49,066 nucleotides of DNA from an uncultured Clostridia bacterium (GTDB taxonomy: Bacteria > Bacillota_I > Bacilli_A > RF39 > UBA660): positions 1 to 49,066 of the forward strand of contig CAMVAF010000007.1 in assembly GCA_947165365.1 (NCBI GenBank), in the 5' to 3' direction. This document shows, in pieces, positions 18,260 through 32,687 of this stretch; positions within the stretch are counted from its first letter, which is position 1; the number at the start of each line of letters is the position of its first letter. The notes beneath the pieces were generated by a model. That model was not told where the DNA came from and did no database searches. It was given only the letters and a program-made list of their open reading frames with translations. Position numbers and translations under genes: made by a program.

Positions 18260-18288
18260 TTGACTATTTTTAAAATATATGGTAAAGT
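18260..18288 (+). promoter_or_regulatory. Promoter of rpmB
   Basis: TTGACT (18260-18265) and TAAAGT (18283-18288) are 17 bases apart, 38 bases before the start codon. Confidence 0.6.
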
Positions 18289-18326
18289 TAATAACTGAGT
18301 TTAAGTATTACAAAGGAGGAGATTAT

Positions 18327-18509
18327 ATGGCAGTTAAATGTACTTCAAGAAAACCATTATTTGGTAATAGAAGAAGTCATGCATTAAATGCAACAAAACA
18401 TACACAAAAATTAAATTTACAAAATGTTACTTTAAGTGATGGTACTAAGGTTAAGGTTTCAACAAGAGAAGCTAAAAAATATAGAAAAGATATTAAAGAA
18501 AGTAAATAA
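18327..18509 (+). CDS. rpmB: 50S ribosomal protein L28
   Basis: 60-residue ribosomal protein. GNRRSHALNATKH matches the L28 core (GN.RSHA.N.TKR), and the basic C-terminus (VSTREAKKYRKDI) is typical. It lacks the CXXC zinc pairs of some L28 forms. The ATG at 18327 is chosen because AAAGGAGGAG precedes it. It has its own promoter and terminator, as is common for rpmB. Confidence 0.95.
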   Translation: MAVKCTSRKPLFGNRRSHALNATKHTQKLNLQNVTLSDGTKVKVSTREAKKYRKDIKESK

Positions 18510-18568: not shown

Positions 18569-19309
18569 GTGAAAAATATTATTAATATCGCTACTACTAT
18601 ATTTTTATTTATTTTTAGTATTATTTACACCAAAAAAGCAATTATCTTTTTACAAAATAATGATCCATTAATCAAGGAAATTAAAAGTCAAGAGAATAAT
18701 TATTATTTAAAACCAATAGATGCTATAATTACTAAAAATTATATGATACCAGGTATATCAGGTAAAACAATAAATATTAATGAATCATATAAAAAAATGA
18801 AGAAATTAAACTCTTTTAATAAAAGTTTAATTGTCTATGAAGATATTTTACCTAATAAGACAATTAATAATAATTACGATAAAGTAATTCTTAAAGGTAA
18901 TCCTAAATTAAAACACCTAAGCATAATAGTAAATACAAATAATAACTATCAAACCATAAATAATTATTTGAAAAATAATAATTTATATTTAGATATATAT
19001 AGTAATCAAAACATTGATATTAGTAATACTAATTTTCAAAATATTGTAACTGATAGTTATTATTATTTTACTGATTATTGTCTTTATAATAATCAAGAAA
19101 TAGATAACAATTGTTATCAAAATAATAAATATACCATTAAAGTATCCAATATTAAATCATTACAAGATGTTAAAGATAATCTTTCTAATGGTGTAATATT
19201 TCTTTATAATAATAAACAACTAGATAATCTAAATATTATTATTAAATATTTAAGAAATAATAATTATCAAATAAAAACTATTGATAAGTTAATTAATGAA
19301 AAAGAATGA
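18569..19309 (+). CDS. Membrane-anchored degenerate polysaccharide-deacetylase-like protein
   Basis: 246 residues with one N-terminal membrane segment (about 5-21, INIATTIFLFIFSIIYT) and an extracytoplasmic remainder. PIDAIITKNYMIPGISGKTININESYKKMKK and SFNKSLIVYEDILPNKTI, read in parts of up to 20, resemble the N-terminal region of a membrane-bound deacetylase-related family. The end (IIIKYLRNNNYQIKTIDKLINE) looks like the last helix and strand of a NodB fold. I see no metal-binding His-Asp motifs, so catalysis is doubtful. The only usable start is GTG at 18569: an in-frame TGA lies at 18560-18562, there is no ribosome binding site, and -10-like sequences are directly upstream. Leaderless translation is possible. 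Confidence 0.5.
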   Translation: MKNIINIATTIFLFIFSIIYTKKAIIFLQNNDPLIKEIKSQENNYYLKPIDAIITKNYMIPGISGKTININESYKKMKKLNSFNKSLIVYEDILPNKTINNNYDKVILKGNPKLKHLSIIVNTNNNYQTINNYLKNNNLYLDIYSNQNIDISNTNFQNIVTDSYYYFTDYCLYNNQEIDNNCYQNNKYTIKVSNIKSLQDVKDNLSNGVIFLYNNKQLDNLNIIIKYLRNNNYQIKTIDKLINEKE

Positions 19310-19473: not shown

Positions 19474-19482
19474 GATAAAAAG

Positions 19483-19507
19483 AAAAAAAGTAGAAAAATC
19501 TACTTTT
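19483..19507 (-). terminator. Terminator of the SH3/cadherin-like operon
   Basis: On the minus strand AAAAGTAGA and TCTACTTTT form a 9-bp stem followed by T residues. It overlaps the stop codon of the cohesin/cadherin-like gene. Confidence 0.75.
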
Positions 19508-21338
19508 CTTCACTTGTATCAACTAAAACATTTCTTTTTAAAGGATTAAGATCATGATTTTCATCATCTTTTTTTTCATCTTCTTTATCCTCATCATCTT
19601 TTGGTTCTTCTTCATTATTATCATAAGAATTATCAGCATCATCAATATTATAATGAGGTTTAATTTCTTCTTTATCAATTACCAACTTCTTTTCTTTTTT
19701 TCTTAATAGGAAAATAATTATTAAAGCAATAATAATCAAGAGAATTAATAATATTATTAACCAAGTTAATGAACCTTTATTACCTTTTTCAATAGTAATA
19801 AAATATCTTGTTATAGTGTTATCTTCTGATTTAACAGTTATTTTAATAATAGAACCATCAATTAAATTTTTATTTCCTTCTATATCAACGGTTGATCTAT
19901 CGTCTTCCGGAGTTACTTTAATATCCAGAGTATCTTCATCTTTTATTTTTAATGTGTAATATAAGGTATCTTTTTTAAAATCTAAAGAATAACCTGCAAT
20001 AGTGATGGATTTAACTAATGAATTGCTGGATAATTTAGGCTTTCTAGTAATCATTATAGTATAACTTACAACATCACCGTTTGGTGCAGTAACATAAATA
20101 TTTATTTCATTCTCTCCTACTTCTAAATTGCTATCTTCAACTTCAATTGAAGCTTTAGGATTACTTGGTATAACATCAATATCTGCTTTTGTTACGTCAT
20201 TTTCAACTTCATAATTATAAAGGAAGGTATCTTTAATAAGTTTAATTTCTTTATTATTAATAGATAATTTATTTAAAGTATTATTACTGCTTAACTCCCT
20301 TGTAATATTTAAATTATAGGTATTTTCCATATTATCTTCAGCAATAACAGTAATAGATACCTTATTCATACCTTCATTAAGTTCAATAGTTTTATTTTTA
20401 AAATCTTCTTTGTATTTAGATTTACTATCAGTTAATTCTGAAGTAATAGTAATTTTTTCTATTTCATTCTTTACTATAATATTATAATCATTAATATTAC
20501 TATTAAAATTGATATTACCACTTGAAATTTTTAATGATTTTAAAGTATTTATGTGACTTCTCTCATCAACTCTTGTAACATTAATTTCGTATGTTTTTTT
20601 ATCCCCTGATTCACTGGTAACAATTATTTTAAAAGTATTAACACCATATTTTAAAGATTTATTACCAATATCACCTGAGATACTTGATTTAGAATCCTTT
20701 TTATCAGCCGAAATATTAATACTTTCAGTATTTCCATTAACATTTAAATTATAAATGGTATTATTTTCATTAAAATTAGATAATTCTTTATTATCAATTT
20801 TGATACTTGATAGTGAATTATTATTTGATTTAATATATACAGTTACCGCACTTCTTGAACATGTTTTATTATCTTCATTTTCAGTATATTTTGAATTGTT
20901 ATTAATATATACAGTGGTTTGTGCATTAACACCGCTTTTTACTTTTAATTTTAAAGTTATCAAAGCATTTTTATTTGATGTATTATTAGTTAAATAACTA
21001 TTTTCATTATCAATAGTAATTTTAAAATTTAAAACAGCATTACTATTTGATAAATCAACATTTTCACTGGTAATATTTAAGCCATTTACCACATTTATAT
21101 AGTGATTATCACTTCTAACTATTTCGAAAGTATTCTTATCGTATATAATATTATATTCAAATTCTTTAATTTTACTATTTGAATTAATTTCATCAAAACC
21201 AACATCCAGTGATAAAACATCACCAACAGTTAAAGTATTATTTTGTCCTTTTTTAAATGATAAAGAACAATTTGTATCAGCTAAAACAAATATTGGAAAA
21301 AATAATATTATTAATGCTAGTAGAATTTTATTCATCAT
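19500..21338 (-). CDS. Cohesin-like and cadherin-like repeat surface protein, C-terminally anchored
   Basis: 612 residues, exported. A signal peptide lies at about 1-20. A beta-rich domain at about 22-165 resembles cohesin folds (GDVLSLDVGFDEI ... FEYNIIYDKNTFEI) and holds two cysteines (DTNCSL, NKTCSRS). Four repeats of about 80-90 residues follow (about 172-517), each like the PF12733 cadherin-like beta-sandwich and most ending in Y-x-I/L-x-I/V-T-R. A membrane helix at about 522-545 (SLTWLIILLILLIIIALII) and an acidic cytoplasmic tail end the protein. The start is in a double ATG at 21335-21338 overlapping the upstream stop; the frame is open 13 codons further but inside the neighbour. Last gene of the operon. 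A role in adhesion or envelope assembly is inferred. Confidence 0.8.
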   Translation of the reverse strand: MMNKILLALIILFFPIFVLADTNCSLSFKKGQNNTLTVGDVLSLDVGFDEINSNSKIKEFEYNIIYDKNTFEIVRSDNHYINVVNGLNITSENVDLSNSNAVLNFKITIDNENSYLTNNTSNKNALITLKLKVKSGVNAQTTVYINNNSKYTENEDNKTCSRSAVTVYIKSNNNSLSSIKIDNKELSNFNENNTIYNLNVNGNTESINISADKKDSKSSISGDIGNKSLKYGVNTFKIIVTSESGDKKTYEINVTRVDERSHINTLKSLKISSGNINFNSNINDYNIIVKNEIEKITITSELTDSKSKYKEDFKNKTIELNEGMNKVSITVIAEDNMENTYNLNITRELSSNNTLNKLSINNKEIKLIKDTFLYNYEVENDVTKADIDVIPSNPKASIEVEDSNLEVGENEINIYVTAPNGDVVSYTIMITRKPKLSSNSLVKSITIAGYSLDFKKDTLYYTLKIKDEDTLDIKVTPEDDRSTVDIEGNKNLIDGSIIKITVKSEDNTITRYFITIEKGNKGSLTWLIILLILLIIIALIIIFLLRKKEKKLVIDKEEIKPHYNIDDADNSYDNNEEEPKDDEDKEDEKKDDENHDLNPLKRNVLVDTSEEK

Positions 21339-22668
21339 GATTTTGTTGTTCATTATGTTCTTCAAATTGATTTTCATTTTCTTCTTTTACCTCCTCTTTA
21401 TTATTTTCAATATTATCTTTATGTTCCTCTATAACAACGTTATTTTTCTTTTTATTTACTAATAGAATAATTACTATAATAGTTAAAGCAAGAACAATCG
21501 ATGCCAATACAATAATAATTATCGTTTCATTATTAATTTTATCTTGTTTTTTTAGTTCTTCCTTTACCTCATTAGTTTTTCCATCATTAACATCAATTAA
21601 ATTATTAGGATCATCATTTACCATATTGTTGTTATCATTTTCATTGTTTGGTAATTGTTCTAATTTAATAACTTTTTCCCCAAATAACCCCTCTCCAATA
21701 TAACCTTTATTCTTTTTTGGAAATGTCGTATTTCCAATAGTTTGATAATCCTTATCATATTCATAATTTTCAGTTTTAATAATACCTTTTTCATCTAATA
21801 AATAATAATACTCATTATAATCACCTGTAACTGAATAATTATATGTACTTGGTTTTAAAGTCTTTATTACTTTATCATTAATATCATATAAATTAGTGTT
21901 TTTTAATAATTTAATTTTTCCAGATACTTTAACTTCAATATCATTAATAAATCCTTTTATACCATTAAAATTCACATAATATGTTGGCAAAAAATTATCT
22001 GCACTTTTTACAAAAGATACATAATTATTTATTTCGGAATCCTTAGGAATTACTCCTATTTTTTTAGTCATTTGTTTATCGCTATATATCTCTGTATCTT
22101 TAAAAACATTAATTAAAATATAATTAGAATCCAATCCCAAATAACCATTTTCAGCACTTATCCAACCTGATTTACCATTATATTCGGTGTAAAACCAATA
22201 TGTACCTGCATTGTGGGTTAATTTTAAAATAGTTTTTTCAGGTATTAAAGTAACCTTAGAATACATTGTTGAAGGTCCTTTTCGAAGATTTAAGCCACCT
22301 CCAGCTAGTACAACTGCGTTAACAGGTTCTATTTTAGTTACATCTTTATTACTTACCTCAAATTTACTATCTTTAAGCGATAAATCACTAACTTTTACAA
22401 TACAACCTTCTTCCATCATATCCTTATCTTTTATTAAAACTGAATAATAATCATTCGATTGTTTAAACTCCAAATATACTATTTTGTTATAGTCAATTTT
22501 TTTATTTGTTGCAATATACTTGTTATTTTTTTCTTCATAACAAACTGCACCATTTTTATTAGAAACTACTAGTTCAAATTTAGCTATACTAGGTGGTCCC
22601 ATATCAGCTTTAACATTAAAGGTAATTGAAAGTAATAAAATTAGTAATAAACTTAAATATTTTTTCAT
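21328..22668 (-). CDS. SH3-domain envelope protein, paralogue 2
   Basis: 446 residues. A signal peptide lies at 1-22 (KKYLSLLLILLLSITFNVKA). A conserved N-terminal module carries DMGPPSIAKFELVVSNKNGA and the CYEEKN and EGCIV cysteines. A bacterial SH3 domain lies at about 122-185 (GGLNLRKGPSTMYSKVTLIP ... GKSGWISAENGYLG) and two further SH3-like stretches reach about 270 (TKKIGVIPKDSEI, NGIKGFI). A spacer, then a C-terminal membrane helix (TIIIIVLASIVLALTIIVII) and a charged cytoplasmic tail follow. The ATG at 22668 follows AGAAAGGATT and overlaps the upstream gene's end. It is clearly homologous to the next gene upstream across its whole length, a tandem duplication. Bacterial SH3 domains usually bind wall peptides. 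Confidence 0.82.
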   Translation of the reverse strand: MKKYLSLLLILLLSITFNVKADMGPPSIAKFELVVSNKNGAVCYEEKNNKYIATNKKIDYNKIVYLEFKQSNDYYSVLIKDKDMMEEGCIVKVSDLSLKDSKFEVSNKDVTKIEPVNAVVLAGGGLNLRKGPSTMYSKVTLIPEKTILKLTHNAGTYWFYTEYNGKSGWISAENGYLGLDSNYILINVFKDTEIYSDKQMTKKIGVIPKDSEINNYVSFVKSADNFLPTYYVNFNGIKGFINDIEVKVSGKIKLLKNTNLYDINDKVIKTLKPSTYNYSVTGDYNEYYYLLDEKGIIKTENYEYDKDYQTIGNTTFPKKNKGYIGEGLFGEKVIKLEQLPNNENDNNNMVNDDPNNLIDVNDGKTNEVKEELKKQDKINNETIIIIVLASIVLALTIIVIILLVNKKKNNVVIEEHKDNIENNKEEVKEENENQFEEHNEQQNHDE

Positions 22669-22690
22669 AAGAATCCTTTCTATAATATGA

Positions 22691-23944
22691 TTATTTATCA
22701 TTTTTTACTACTACTTTTTCTTTTTTCTTGATATTAACTAGTTTTATGATGATAACAATAGTTAATGCAAGAACAATACATGATAGTAAAATAATTATTA
22801 TTAATTCATTATTAATTTTGTTTTCTTTTTTTACTTCTTCTTTAATATCATTTACATCAATTATTTCTTTAGGATCAACTTTTACATCTTCTACTTCTTC
22901 ATATTTAACTTCTTCTTTAGTATCAACACTACTTTCTTTCTTTTCACCAAATAATCCTTCACCAATAAAACCTTTTGTTTTAATATCAGAAATTGATCCT
23001 TGATCAGTAAAATTAGTATTATCATTATCAATTAGTTTAATAGTTCCATCAAATTTAGGAATATAAAAGGTGCATACATAATTCCATGCTTTTTTTGTTT
23101 CAACGCTTTCGCATGACTCAATACTATAATTTAATACTTCCCCTTTTTTTATAGTTTGTTTAGTGCCATCTCTTTTAGTTAAAGTAGCATCACTATTTAA
23201 TTTTACTTTACCATTTACTTTATAAGTAGTATTTTTAATATAACCTTTAGTTCCATTATAATTAACGAAATAAGCTGGTTCATAACTTACAAGTGATAAA
23301 TAATTTGTTATTTCTGTAAATTTAGGAATACTACCAATCTTTTTAGTTAATTTCTTATCACTAAATATCTCTGTTTCATTAACAGAATAAAGAATAGCAT
23401 CATTATTCATACCAAAGTATGCATTTTCGCCAGTAATCCAACCAGACTTACCATTATATTCGGCATAATACCAGTAATCGCCCACACGATATTTTAAGGT
23501 AACTACGCTATATTGTGGAATCAAAACTACTTTAGAAAATATTGTAGCAGGTCCTTTTCTTAAATTTAAACCTCCATTTGCAAGAATCACAGCTTTAACA
23601 GGATTTATCTTAACAATATCTTCACTTTTTAAATTATATTCACTATTTTTAGGAGTAAGATTTTTAGTTTCCACAAAACATCCAAACTGATATTCATCTT
23701 TATCATCATAATAATCTACATATAAATACTTATCAGTTGTTTCACTATAAAATTTTACAATAGATCCATAGCTTATTACTTTATCAGTTTTAATATAACC
23801 ATTATTTTTCTCTTCATAACAAACGGCACCATCTTTATTCGATACGTAAACATCATATTGGGCAATTGATGGTCCATCAGAATCAGCATAAACATTTAAA
23901 CCAAAACCTAAAATCATTAAACATAATAATAAAATTTTCTTCAT
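22691..23944 (-). CDS. SH3-domain envelope protein, paralogue 1
   Basis: 417 residues, same layout as its downstream paralogue. Signal peptide (MKKILLLCLMILGFGLNVYA), then DSDGPSIAQYDVYVSNKDGA with the CYEEKN and FGCFVE cysteines. An SH3 domain follows (GGLNLRKGPATIFSKVVLIP ... YNGKSGWITGENAYFG), then further SH3-like segments and a second cysteine pair (SIESCESVE, WNYVCTFY) that paralogue 2 lacks. GFIGEGLFGEK comes before the spacer, then a C-terminal membrane helix and a short basic tail. AAAAGGAGAA precedes the ATG. The divergence of the two copies suggests separate roles, possibly a hetero-oligomer. Function unknown. Confidence 0.82.
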   Translation of the reverse strand: MKKILLLCLMILGFGLNVYADSDGPSIAQYDVYVSNKDGAVCYEEKNNGYIKTDKVISYGSIVKFYSETTDKYLYVDYYDDKDEYQFGCFVETKNLTPKNSEYNLKSEDIVKINPVKAVILANGGLNLRKGPATIFSKVVLIPQYSVVTLKYRVGDYWYYAEYNGKSGWITGENAYFGMNNDAILYSVNETEIFSDKKLTKKIGSIPKFTEITNYLSLVSYEPAYFVNYNGTKGYIKNTTYKVNGKVKLNSDATLTKRDGTKQTIKKGEVLNYSIESCESVETKKAWNYVCTFYIPKFDGTIKLIDNDNTNFTDQGSISDIKTKGFIGEGLFGEKKESSVDTKEEVKYEEVEDVKVDPKEIIDVNDIKEEVKKENKINNELIIIILLSCIVLALTIVIIIKLVNIKKKEKVVVKNDK

Positions 23945-23956
23945 AAATTCTCCTTT

Positions 23957-24313
23957 TTAATATATAAAATTGTTTATTATTCTTCCTAATCCAAATGATG
24001 CTATATTTAAAATTAATGAAACTATATAAGGATTAATTTTTCTTCTTTTAAAGTATTTTTGATATATATAACCCTCTATTATTACAACAATTATTTCTAA
24101 AATAATTAAGACAATTGTTCTAATTTTTAAACCAAAATAATAATTAACGCTACCAACAATGGCATTAAGTAAAGGATTCGTTAAAACATTAACTAAAAAA
24201 ATATTTAATAAATCTTTTTTTCTAAAACCTAATATAAATCCAATTAAGCATTCGATTACTAAAGTTATTATTAAACTATAAAGAATTATTCTTGGTAAAT
24301 CACTTATTTTCAT
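23957..24313 (-). CDS. Four-helix membrane protein of unknown function
   Basis: 118 residues with four hydrophobic segments (about 9-29, 36-55, 62-86, 96-113). NVLTNPLLNAIVG in the second helix and IVVIIEGYIYQKYFKRRKIN, with a buried glutamate in the third, stand out. I recall similar small membrane proteins in Bacillota but cannot name a family. Its start overlaps the end of the 46-aa gene by 14 bases and the SH3 gene follows after 12 bases, so it is firmly part of the operon. Confidence 0.7.
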   Translation of the reverse strand: MKISDLPRIILYSLIITLVIECLIGFILGFRKKDLLNIFLVNVLTNPLLNAIVGSVNYYFGLKIRTIVLIILEIIVVIIEGYIYQKYFKRRKINPYIVSLILNIASFGLGRIINNFIY

Positions 24314-24440
24314 GATGTTTTAATTCCTTCCATACAAGAATAAAAGTAATAATAATAATTAAAATAATAATAGATATTGATAGAAAAAATAGTGTTTCCT
24401 TATTTTCTAAGAATCTTCCTTCATATATCCACTTAATCAT
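24300..24440 (-). CDS. 46-residue membrane peptide
   Basis: A short gene between the MFS-like and four-helix genes. The peptide starts MIKWIYEGRFLENKETLFFL, has one membrane helix (SISIIILIIIITFILVWKEL) and ends KHHENK. Its ATG overlaps the MFS stop as ATGA and AGGAGGG lies just upstream. Its stop lies 14 bases inside the next gene. Coupling on both sides and a sound binding site make it a real gene. By position it may be a small subunit of the membrane complex made by this operon. Confidence 0.75.
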   Translation of the reverse strand: MIKWIYEGRFLENKETLFFLSISIIILIIIITFILVWKELKHHENK

Positions 24441-25486
24441 TCTTCCCTCCTAATTATATAACTAAGAATTAAACTACAAGCAATTGATAATGATATAATC
24501 ATTATGCTGTTAAATGTAGTATTAACTATCTTGATAAAGAAGATTGGAGCTGTTCCTAAAAATAATCCAATTGTTGTAAGACCAAAAGCAAGAGATGGAT
24601 TTTTCTTTAACACAGAAACTAGTATTCCTAAAGTTACGGCCATAGTCATTGAAAAAAACATAACTCCAAGAAGTGATATAATCATTAAATTATCTCCTAT
24701 TAATAGAAATGGTATAGCGAAAATAGTACTTAATATGGCAACTTTTCTAATTCCCAATAAATCTGATAATATTCCTCCTAAACATTTACCTATTCCCATA
24801 ATAAAGAATAAATAAACTGTTTCTTGCATTGTTTTATTCCAAGATGTTGGAATGCCATATCCCATATAACCTCTTACAATAACTACAAGTACTGCAAGAA
24901 GAACTATGATAAATGGATGAACTTTCTTACTTTCATAATTAAATGATAAAGTATTACTATTTTTACTAATAAAAGTATTTGCATAAATTATAAAAGGAAT
25001 CATTGTTAAAATAGCAATTAACATTGTCCAAGAAGGTAACATTGTTTTAGCTAAAACTCTTCCAATTACTACCCCAAAACTTCCCCCTCCAACAAATATT
25101 GCAGGATGAGAAAGTTTACCTAAACTTACATTTAAAGTATTAAAAGCACCTTCGACATGCAAAAAAGCATTACCAAAACATATAAAGAATAATGATATAA
25201 ACTTTGGTATATCTAAAAATGAAAAGATAGAAATACCAATAAACAATAAGATAACACCAATTATTCCAAAATTAATTTTAGGATTTTTATCTTTAAAATA
25301 ACCAATAATACTCTGTGGTACAAAAGCAAAAGCATCATATAAAAATGGTACTAACCATACAATTGGACTATTAGATATTTTAGATAAATAATAAAAACAT
25401 ACTAATTCTACAATAAAATGAATATAAAAATATAAATAACCACAAATAATATTTTCCTCTTTTAAAACACGCTTTAACTTCTTCAT
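24437..25486 (-). CDS. MFS-like membrane transporter
   Basis: 349 residues, with about ten hydrophobic helices. IIGYFKDKNP between early helices and KCLGGILSDLLGIRKVAIL in the middle are the loop motifs of the major facilitator superfamily. The protein is shorter than the usual 400 residues, and the substrate is not predictable. It heads the six-gene operon, with a promoter at 25503-25530. Because all partners are envelope proteins with single anchors or SH3 domains, it might export or sense a wall-related compound, which is inference only. Confidence 0.75.
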   Translation of the reverse strand: MKKLKRVLKEENIICGYLYFYIHFIVELVCFYYLSKISNSPIVWLVPFLYDAFAFVPQSIIGYFKDKNPKINFGIIGVILLFIGISIFSFLDIPKFISLFFICFGNAFLHVEGAFNTLNVSLGKLSHPAIFVGGGSFGVVIGRVLAKTMLPSWTMLIAILTMIPFIIYANTFISKNSNTLSFNYESKKVHPFIIVLLAVLVVIVRGYMGYGIPTSWNKTMQETVYLFFIMGIGKCLGGILSDLLGIRKVAILSTIFAIPFLLIGDNLMIISLLGVMFFSMTMAVTLGILVSVLKKNPSLAFGLTTIGLFLGTAPIFFIKIVNTTFNSIMIISLSIACSLILSYIIRREE

Positions 25487-25502: not shown

Positions 25503-25530
25503 AGTATAACACATTTATTTTTTTATTCAA
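25503..25530 (-). promoter_or_regulatory. Promoter of the MFS/SH3/cadherin-like operon
   Basis: On the minus strand TTGAAT (25525-25530) and TATACT (25503-25508) are 16 bases apart, 16 bases before the MFS start. Confidence 0.5.
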
Positions 25531-30860: not shown

Positions 30861-32687
30861 ATGTTTTTAAGAAAAAGTATTAGTCACGGGAAAATTTATT
30901 TATCATTTGTGCAAGGATATAGAGATGAAAATGGAAAAGTGAAACAAAAAACAATTGAAAAACTAGGATATTTAGATGACTTAAAAAAGATATTTAATAA
31001 TCCAATAGAACATTTTCAAAGTATTGCAAAAGAAAAATCCTCTGAGCAAATTAAGGAATATACAATTAAAAATCTTAATACTAAAACTATTGATGATGAT
31101 TCTCATCCTAGAAATTTAGGATATGTTATTTTAAAAAAAGTTTATGATGAATTAGGTATTTCATCTATTCTTAAAGATAAACAATCATCTTTAAATATTA
31201 AGTATTCATTAGATAATATTATGAAATTATTAGTATTTTCAAGAATTTTATATCCTTCTAGTAAAAATGAAACTTTTAATAATAAAGATATATTCTTTGA
31301 AAAATTTGATTTTTCATTAAAAGATTTGTATAGAAGTTTAGATCATTTTGATAGTTTAAAAAATGAAATTGTTAAATCTATTTGGAATAATACTAAAGAT
31401 TCATACAAACGAGATACTTCTATTTCTTATTATGATACTACAAATTATTATTTTGAAATCTCTTATAACGATGAAGATTTAATTGATGAAAATGGTAATA
31501 TTTTAGAAAAAGGTTCTAGAAAAAAAGGACCTTCTAAAGAACATAGAAAAACTCCTATTATTGGTATGGGACTGTTGATGGACAAAAATGGCATACCTTT
31601 ATCATACGATTTGTTTCCAGGAAATGAATCTGAAAAATTAATGATGAGACCCACTCTTAAAAAAACTAAAAGACAATTTGGTATTGATAGAACTATTATT
31701 GTTGCAGATAGAGGTCAAAACACTTCCGATAATACAGTGTTTATTGCAGGTAAAAATGATGATAAACATACCAATCATGATGGCTATGTTTATGGTCAAA
31801 GTATCATTGGTGCCGACAAAGAATTTAAAACTTGGGCCTTAAATCAAGAAGGATTTGTTAATGATTTTATTTATGATGATGAAGGAAACAAAGTTACTTT
31901 TAAAGAAACAATAAAAGATGAAAACGGAAACATTTTAAGATATGAAGATAAACCAGTTATCTTCAAACACAAATCAAGAGTTTATGCAAAAAAAGTTCAA
32001 ATAAAAAAAGATAATAAAAGAAATGTCAGTTATCTAATCTATCAAAAACAAATGGTTTATTATTCTAGGAAATATGCCGAAAGACAAAAACATGAAAGAG
32101 AACTTGCAATAAAGAAAGCTGAGGATTTAATTAATAATCCTGGTAAATATACACAAGCCACTTCATATGGTTGTACTAAATATATTAACAACATTCGATT
32201 TGATGAAGAAACTGGTGACGTGCCAAAAGGATTAGAGTTATCTTTAAAATTAGATAAAATCAAAGAAGAAGAAAAATATGATGGTTATTATTCTATTGTT
32301 ACAAGTGAAAAATATTTAACAGACAAGGAAATTAGAGATATATATAAAGGACTTTGGAAAATTGAAGAATCATTCAAAATTACAAAATCTGATTTAGAAA
32401 CTAGACCTGTATATGTTTGGACTAAAGAACACATTGAAGCTCATTTCCTAACTTGTTTCATCTCACTTATTATATTAAGATTAATAGAATATAAAACAAA
32501 TAGAAAATATTCAACATCCTCTATTATTGATTCACTAAAAAAATATATTTCAAACAATTTAGAACATGATATATACTTACAAAACTTCACAAATGATATA
32601 ATCAAAGATTTATCCAACACTTATAACATTGATTTATCAAGAAAATACTTAACTTTATCTGAGATTAAAAAAATTTTAAATTTTTAA
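30861..32687 (+). CDS. IS1634-family DDE transposase
   Basis: 608 residues, full length and uninterrupted. The N-terminus (SFVQGYRDENGKVKQKTIEK) is typical of the family. The catalytic triad can be placed as D in SYYDTTNYYF, D in IIVADRGQNTSDN, and E in YKGLWKIEESFKITKSDLE. In the Y-R-E-K signature the R position is Leu. A C-terminal helical part follows (HIEAHFLTCFISLIILRLIE). GTAGGA precedes the ATG. Nothing is broken, so the element may be active. Confidence 0.95.
   Translation: MFLRKSISHGKIYLSFVQGYRDENGKVKQKTIEKLGYLDDLKKIFNNPIEHFQSIAKEKSSEQIKEYTIKNLNTKTIDDDSHPRNLGYVILKKVYDELGISSILKDKQSSLNIKYSLDNIMKLLVFSRILYPSSKNETFNNKDIFFEKFDFSLKDLYRSLDHFDSLKNEIVKSIWNNTKDSYKRDTSISYYDTTNYYFEISYNDEDLIDENGNILEKGSRKKGPSKEHRKTPIIGMGLLMDKNGIPLSYDLFPGNESEKLMMRPTLKKTKRQFGIDRTIIVADRGQNTSDNTVFIAGKNDDKHTNHDGYVYGQSIIGADKEFKTWALNQEGFVNDFIYDDEGNKVTFKETIKDENGNILRYEDKPVIFKHKSRVYAKKVQIKKDNKRNVSYLIYQKQMVYYSRKYAERQKHERELAIKKAEDLINNPGKYTQATSYGCTKYINNIRFDEETGDVPKGLELSLKLDKIKEEEKYDGYYSIVTSEKYLTDKEIRDIYKGLWKIEESFKITKSDLETRPVYVWTKEHIEAHFLTCFISLIILRLIEYKTNRKYSTSSIIDSLKKYISNNLEHDIYLQNFTNDIIKDLSNTYNIDLSRKYLTLSEIKKILNF

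Follow-up and report, generated by a model that had tools for sequence, protein, structure and literature searches.

An unnamed four-gene membrane cassette with tagged exported partners in an uncultured Clostridia bacterium

Introduction

Located on contig 7 of a metagenome-assembled genome (1.4 Mb, 82% complete) from an uncultured Clostridia bacterium is a tight run of six genes encoding membrane and exported proteins. The whole stretch of DNA analyzed, hereafter referred to as the window, is 49,066 nucleotides in length. A sequence-only reading had taken the six genes as one operon, lying behind a single promoter and ending at a single terminator, that specifies a self-interacting, wall-binding membrane complex without a named counterpart. 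The question raised by the locus is which of the six genes constitute a conserved unit, and what such a unit might do in the cell envelope.

Results

Layout of the locus

Listed in Table 1 are the features of the locus. The six minus-strand open reading frames run contiguously from position 25486 to position 19500, with overlaps or gaps of no more than ~22 nt, and thus the proposed operon stands as far as six real, contiguous genes are concerned, although the part that is conserved comprises four. Upstream of the run lies trpS, whose end is a U-rich hairpin visible in the sequence. The anticipated terminator is represented by a hairpin-forming stretch behind the last gene, but the anticipated promoter is weak. 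Indeed, 102 promoter-like sites were found in comparison to 112 expected from shuffled sequence. The arrangement is not an assembly artefact, given that a second, independently assembled genome of this species (L004) and a sister metagenome-assembled genome (L003) show the six genes in the same order. Purifying selection acts on all six genes. The dN/dS values versus the sister species are 0.088 for the MFS-family protein, the lowest of the six, 0.114 and 0.146 for SH3 proteins a and b, respectively, 0.167 for the cadherin-like protein, 0.185 for the four-helix membrane protein (4TM), and 0.41 for the 46-aa peptide, this last value arising from 46 codons only.

Two other plus-strand features of the window were noted. 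A 246-aa exported-looking protein (18569-19309) with no Pfam match is encoded between a ribosomal-protein-like open reading frame (18279-18509) and a tRNA-Glu gene, and is syntenic in L003. A transposase with a DDE domain (30861-32687) lies beside a tRNA-Cys gene on the strand opposite to that of its surroundings.

Table 1. Features of the locus, with positions given in window coordinates.
Feature	Position	Strand	Basis or remark
MFS-family protein, 349 aa, first cassette gene	24437..25486	-	ORF call; MFS_1 in 19/22 relatives; 4TM adjacency 19/19 outside the window's family
Single-helix membrane peptide, 46 aa, overlapping both neighbors, with a C-terminal "KEL"-type basic tail	24300..24440	-	ORF call; counterparts in the window's family
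Four-helix membrane protein (4TM), 118 aa, core component	23957..24313	-	Invariant T17, E21, N46, E73, E80, N103, S106; no Pfam family
SH3 protein a, 417 aa: signal peptide, D..P motif, ~4 SH3-like modules, linker, C-terminal helix aa 379-408	22691..23944	-	
Post-signal motif ADSDGP of SH3 protein a, residues 20-25	23870..23887	-	A20, D21, P25 invariant among 15 relatives
SH3 protein b, 446 aa, tandem paralogue (48% identical to SH3 protein a)	21328..22668	-	
Post-signal motif ADMGPP of SH3 protein b	22591..22608	-	
Cadherin-like surface protein, 625 aa, four PF12733 domains, C-terminal helix, acidic tail	19500..21377	-	Genus-specific neighbor, outside the conserved core
Terminator-like hairpin, 13 pairs, 3' of last gene	19482..19511	-	Hairpin in sequence
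Candidate promoter TTGAAT-16-TATACT, TG-extended	25503..25530	-	Count not above chance expectation

The conserved unit

The conserved unit is a four-part cassette composed of the MFS-family protein, a single-helix peptide of ~45 aa, the 4TM protein, and an exported SH3 protein that is anchored through its C-terminus. Across ~11 genera whose flanking genes differ, the four genes stand in the order MFS-peptide-4TM-SH3 or in a permuted one, and counterparts of the 46-aa peptide lie directly after the MFS gene in all cassettes examined in the window's family. Within the order the distribution is patchy, at ~5%. Profile searches identified the 4TM protein in 15 of 288 genomes, one of which (G261) carries a weak remnant with stops, and the SH3 protein in 13 of 288. 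Both were present in 12 genomes (Fisher p ~1e-17, with the two 288-genome samples, which share handles, treated as one draw). The tandem duplication of the SH3 gene is confined to the window's species and its sister, and G322 and G323 have one SH3 gene each. In the loci compared, neither substrate genes nor a kinase or regulator travel with the cassette. A second cassette copy in G094 (L030, 5261-7008) consists of SH3 and 4TM genes with no MFS gene beside them, and the other copy in that genome (L031) is complete.

The patchiness, with 15 of 288 genomes positive, is what might speak for unrelated genes that lie together by chance. That explanation is barely credible in light of the recurrence of the same genes in ~11 genera with different flanks, the adjacency of the MFS and 4TM genes at 19 of 19 loci, and the fusion of the 4TM protein to an exported domain, both described below. 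For the four core genes chance grouping is refuted by their conserved synteny in unrelated flanks.

The cadherin-like neighbor

The four cadherin-like domains that had been assigned to the last protein of the run were indeed found with Pfam (PF12733, E = 2.5e-28). The cohesin-like domain assigned to the same protein was not, in that no cohesin profile from Pfam matched any of four orthologues at E ≤ 5 and there was no PDB sequence match. In four species of the window's genus the gene comes next after the SH3 gene, and it is absent from the cassettes of other genera, whereas 185 of 241 genomes have relatives of the protein and most of these genomes lack the cassette. Because only the window's genus has it next to the cassette and its relatives are so widespread elsewhere, the protein is a neighbor and not part of the core. 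A dedicated complex of all six proteins, as proposed earlier, would fit the contiguity and common orientation of the genes and the constant position of the cadherin-like gene in the four species. Given how common such proteins are without the cassette, and given that the cassettes of other genera do without the gene, such a complex is very unlikely, and the six-gene unit was rejected. What relatives do keep together are the MFS, peptide, 4TM, and SH3 genes. Very long open frames (~2,000-6,000 aa) matching cadherin-like repeats were observed in G154, G239, G091, and G155.

The SH3 proteins

Both paralogues match SH3_3 in Pfam (E = 2.6e-9 and 4.5e-7), in agreement with their previous description as tandem SH3 proteins. 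In the AlphaFold2 model approximately four SH3-like β-modules are predicted, delineated by residues ~31-98, 110-179, 185-236, and 240-306, followed by a disordered linker and one C-terminal helix formed by residues 379 to 408. The best Foldseek match to the model is the SH3 array of Bacillus subtilis YrvJ (1.5e-8), and weaker matches include the teichoic-acid-binding domains of SlpA and the phiSM101 endolysin. At the sequence level, the profile likewise matches the phiSM101 lysozyme and SH3 chains from clostridia. On the basis of these matches it is plausible that the SH3 modules bind a wall polymer, although likeness to wall binders is no proof of binding. Note that while the predicted folds match those of the SH3b wall binders YrvJ, the phiSM101 endolysin, and SlpA (PDB 9a7d, 4krt, and 8alu), the modules of the cassette reside on a membrane-anchored protein without an enzyme domain. 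Of the paired cysteines emphasized earlier, the first pair of the SH3 proteins is found in only part of the SH3 family and is replaced as a pair in other members. The notion of a self-interacting, wall-binding membrane complex thus retains a conserved module and SH3 proteins of a wall-binding type, but loses the cohesin-based self-interaction.

The MFS-family protein

The window's MFS-like protein, taken alone, matches MFS_1 at a level below Pfam's cutoff. Among 22 relatives, 19 match MFS_1 at E ≤ 1e-3, with a best value of 2.5e-12, which upholds the original assignment, and the L043 homologue contains 12 hydrophobic segments. With this profile and ~12 predicted helices the protein can be placed in the superfamily, though the superfamily match is weak. 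No NCBIfam model for a named MFS subfamily matched any of the 22 relatives at E ≤ 1e-3, nor was there a PDB sequence match.

A profile search of the class for the MFS protein returned 23 of 395 genomes at E ≤ 1e-20. At all 19 MFS loci outside the window's family the 4TM gene is adjacent, with at most tiny open reading frames between the two. The reverse was addressed by a search for the MFS protein in 33 genomes, of which G042 and G117 are not 4TM carriers and were left out. None of the 21 genomes with a fused type of 4TM protein carries the MFS protein. Of nine genomes with other 4TM loci only G388 was positive, and there the MFS gene adjoins the 4TM gene. G248, a 4TM carrier from the window's family, has no MFS protein. 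Given the 19 of 19 adjacency and the 0 of 21 result, the presence of the MFS protein implies that of the 4TM protein, but the 4TM protein does not imply the MFS protein. In G248 (L042, 5774-8682) the 4TM gene is accompanied by genes for two tandem motif-bearing anchored proteins, and the genome has no MFS gene of the cassette type.

The 4TM protein and its fused form

With a broader profile the 4TM protein was found in 50 of 392 genomes of a phylum sample, all matches being in the window's class. Seven residues, namely T17, E21, N46, E73, E80, N103, and S106, are invariant across 26 sequences, and three of these are glutamates within the membrane. The invariant residues are spaced by 3, 4, or 7 within the helices, which would place them on one face and is consistent with a shared polar cavity.

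In ~20 of the 50 genomes the 4TM protein forms the C-terminal part of a single protein, preceded by a signal peptide, an ADMGPKP-type motif, and an exported β-domain of ~130 aa. An alignment of 22 such fused proteins reveals the A, D, and K of the motif and the T/E/N/Q/E/E/N series to be invariant or nearly so. The fused form would fix the N-terminus of the 4TM protein on the outside of the membrane, in agreement with its basic loops. A fused protein was modeled by AlphaFold2 with a pLDDT of 86 and a pTM of 0.72. A Foldseek search of this model against solved structures gave no match at E ≤ 0.001, the best being the PepT2 extracellular domain at a nonsignificant 0.02. There is no Pfam family for the 4TM or the fused protein, the few matches being weak and isolated, and no NCBIfam family for the fused proteins scanned.

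Two other candidate identities were rejected. A defense system found no support in PADLOC, which returned no match for a fused 4TM protein or for the MFS, 4TM, SH3 a, SH3 b, and cadherin-like proteins of the window. A mobile or phage origin was likewise discarded, since tblastn gave no plasmid match for the MFS and fused 4TM proteins and no phage match for the fused 4TM protein. A search for viral contig relatives of the MFS protein found none. A related arrangement, with a longer 4TM relative and a 147-aa membrane protein, is seen in L113 (309-1926) and L115 (1378-3013), where the exported proteins begin with ANAPAPGP in place of ADxGxP. Similar "AD..P" SH3 proteins and "LVN..TNP" 4TM proteins presumably occur in Clostridia.

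The D..P tag

The exported partners, from peptides of 45 aa to SH3 proteins, have in common a D-x(2-4)-P motif after the signal peptide. In the 15 aligned SH3 proteins A20, D21, and P25 are invariant, even though all but one of these proteins are only 19-48% identical to that of the window. In the 22 fused proteins the A is invariant, and the D, K, and P are kept in 20, 20, and 19 sequences, respectively. Elsewhere the exported partners are peptides of ~45-60 aa or proteins of 130-230 aa with L-D-V-x-x-P-type starts. At 21 MFS-4TM loci the motif is present in 31 of 42 small membrane open reading frames of the cassettes versus 5 of 254 elsewhere, with at least one in every locus; the corresponding p value of 1e-27 is overstated, given that the loci include close relatives and that the pattern was defined with the sequences already in view. 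An earlier, looser count gave 50 of 85 versus 10 of 59, several of the 10 being true partners in divergent orientation. The 46-aa peptide of the window has no D..P motif, and it has conserved counterparts in the window's family. G020 encodes an 81-aa version composed of signal peptide, ADVAAP, and anchor helix, from which the SH3 modules have been lost, whereas its congener G123 keeps the long multi-SH3 form; this suggests a single exported family of modular build, the outer parts of which are interchangeable. Four tandem membrane peptides of 45-57 aa are encoded between the MFS and 4TM genes of L068 (2033-2698), three with the D..P pattern and all with a basic C-terminus.

A tag common to proteins whose exported parts are unrelated, including 45-aa peptides and the tandem four of L068, could signify a maturation or anchoring machinery in which the 4TM protein, joined in some lineages by the MFS protein, recognizes the tag in order to process, orient, or modify exported anchored proteins. 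The three invariant membrane glutamates would suit such a role. The tag is kept, though, where the exported part is fused to the 4TM protein and recognition of a substrate in trans is unneeded, and the clients are confined to the cassette instead of being spread across the genome, 12 of the 13 genomes with an SH3 protein also carrying the 4TM protein. A maturation role is accordingly quite unlikely.

Discussion

The reading that we favor, with a confidence somewhat short of even, is that of an undescribed envelope complex whose exported, tagged subunits are held by the 4TM protein and, in this lineage, coupled by it to an MFS carrier. Its core would be the 118-aa 4TM protein, with conserved polar and acidic residues in the membrane, together with an exported protein whose D-x-x-x-P tag directly follows the signal peptide. 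Positioned at the membrane surface, the tag may dock on, or plug, the 4TM protein. In this lineage the core would be joined by an MFS carrier of its own and by a very small subunit with one helix, and the exported protein would be a string of SH3 modules that binds wall polymer and is anchored by its C-terminal helix. Most probably the MFS carrier would import, export, or flip a small molecule, either related to the wall or resembling a peptide, while on the outside the exported subunit would capture this ligand or sense the wall. It is from the conserved cassette, the obligate MFS-4TM adjacency, the fusion of the 4TM protein to an exported domain, the common motif, and the invariant membrane residues that we infer physical contact within a complex, docking of the motif, transport, and the nature of the substrate and function.

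The absence of the MFS protein from all 21 fused-type genomes argues against the transport part of this reading, as the core there needs no transport by this type of MFS carrier. Weighing against the favored reading, too, are the absence of substrate genes traveling with the cassette and the missing motif in the 46-aa peptide of the window's family. Since the fused form exists without the MFS protein, the core would have a role of its own, and this leaves room for an envelope sensor or tether. Monitoring or holding of the wall would then fall to the 4TM and exported proteins, with the MFS protein being only a membrane scaffold or receptor. Also in keeping with a sensor or tether are the resemblance of the SH3 modules to wall and teichoic-acid binders and the wide variation of the exported domains, when neither the motif nor the 4TM protein varies. 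Nevertheless, of the six proteins it is the MFS protein that is under the strongest constraint, and its MFS signature has been retained, which better fits an active carrier than a scaffold. Moreover, no kinase or regulator travels with the cassette. A sensor or tether without transport is on these grounds unlikely, though the least so of the alternatives. A further reading is a new kind of envelope machine, in which an acidic polar cavity of the 4TM protein is operated by a conserved extracellular D-x(2-4)-P tag on interchangeable 45-aa peptides, SH3 wall binders, or a fused domain, with the MFS protein added in some lineages. We regard this as possible but doubtful.

Three known arrangements invite comparison. 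GLMP is a single-span protein with a large domain outside the cytoplasm. It is the obligate accessory subunit of the mammalian lysosomal MFS carrier MFSD1 and the pair resembles the cassette in that an MFS protein is matched with an accessory membrane protein (PMC6819133, PMC11252000). MFSD1-GLMP differs in that it is not known to have a 4TM subunit, tiny peptides, or a D..P tag; the likeness is one of arrangement, and no sequence relation is claimed. In the mycobacterial pair of the lipoprotein LprG and the MFS protein Rv1410c (PMC4709180), a bacterial locus likewise encodes a putative efflux protein together with an exported protein that is bound to the envelope, again a likeness of arrangement and not of descent. 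LprG is a lipoprotein with a lipid pocket, however, rather than a protein with SH3 modules and a C-terminal helix, and there is no 4TM protein. Finally, AcrZ, KdpF, and similar proteins are small membrane subunits of transporters (PMC7267776, PMC11539335). Like them, the ~45-aa single-helix peptide is encoded with a transporter, but the partner transporter families are different. To our knowledge, the D..P motif is not among the known features of such subunits.

A limited literature search revealed nothing on the composition of the cassette or on the ADMGPKP string, which agrees with the earlier statement that no named system corresponds to it. The core is taken as new on account of its absence from Pfam, NCBIfam, PADLOC, the PDB, and the literature so searched. 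Three of its features had not been recognized previously: the 4TM protein belongs to a family that is widespread but has no name, an exported domain is fused to it in other genomes, and its exported partners have the D..P tag in common. The locus is a real and unusual operon, and what is conserved in it is a module that has no name, bears a clear tag, and has a membrane core belonging to no family. The 4TM family, which like its tagged partners has no name in the libraries searched, is present in about one-eighth of the sampled phylum genomes (50 of 392), many small genomes among them. The fused form, the tag, and the invariant residues provide direct handles for testing function, and the tag offers a route to further members. 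If docking of the tag is true, it would offer a general means by which one membrane unit could be fitted with variable surface domains.
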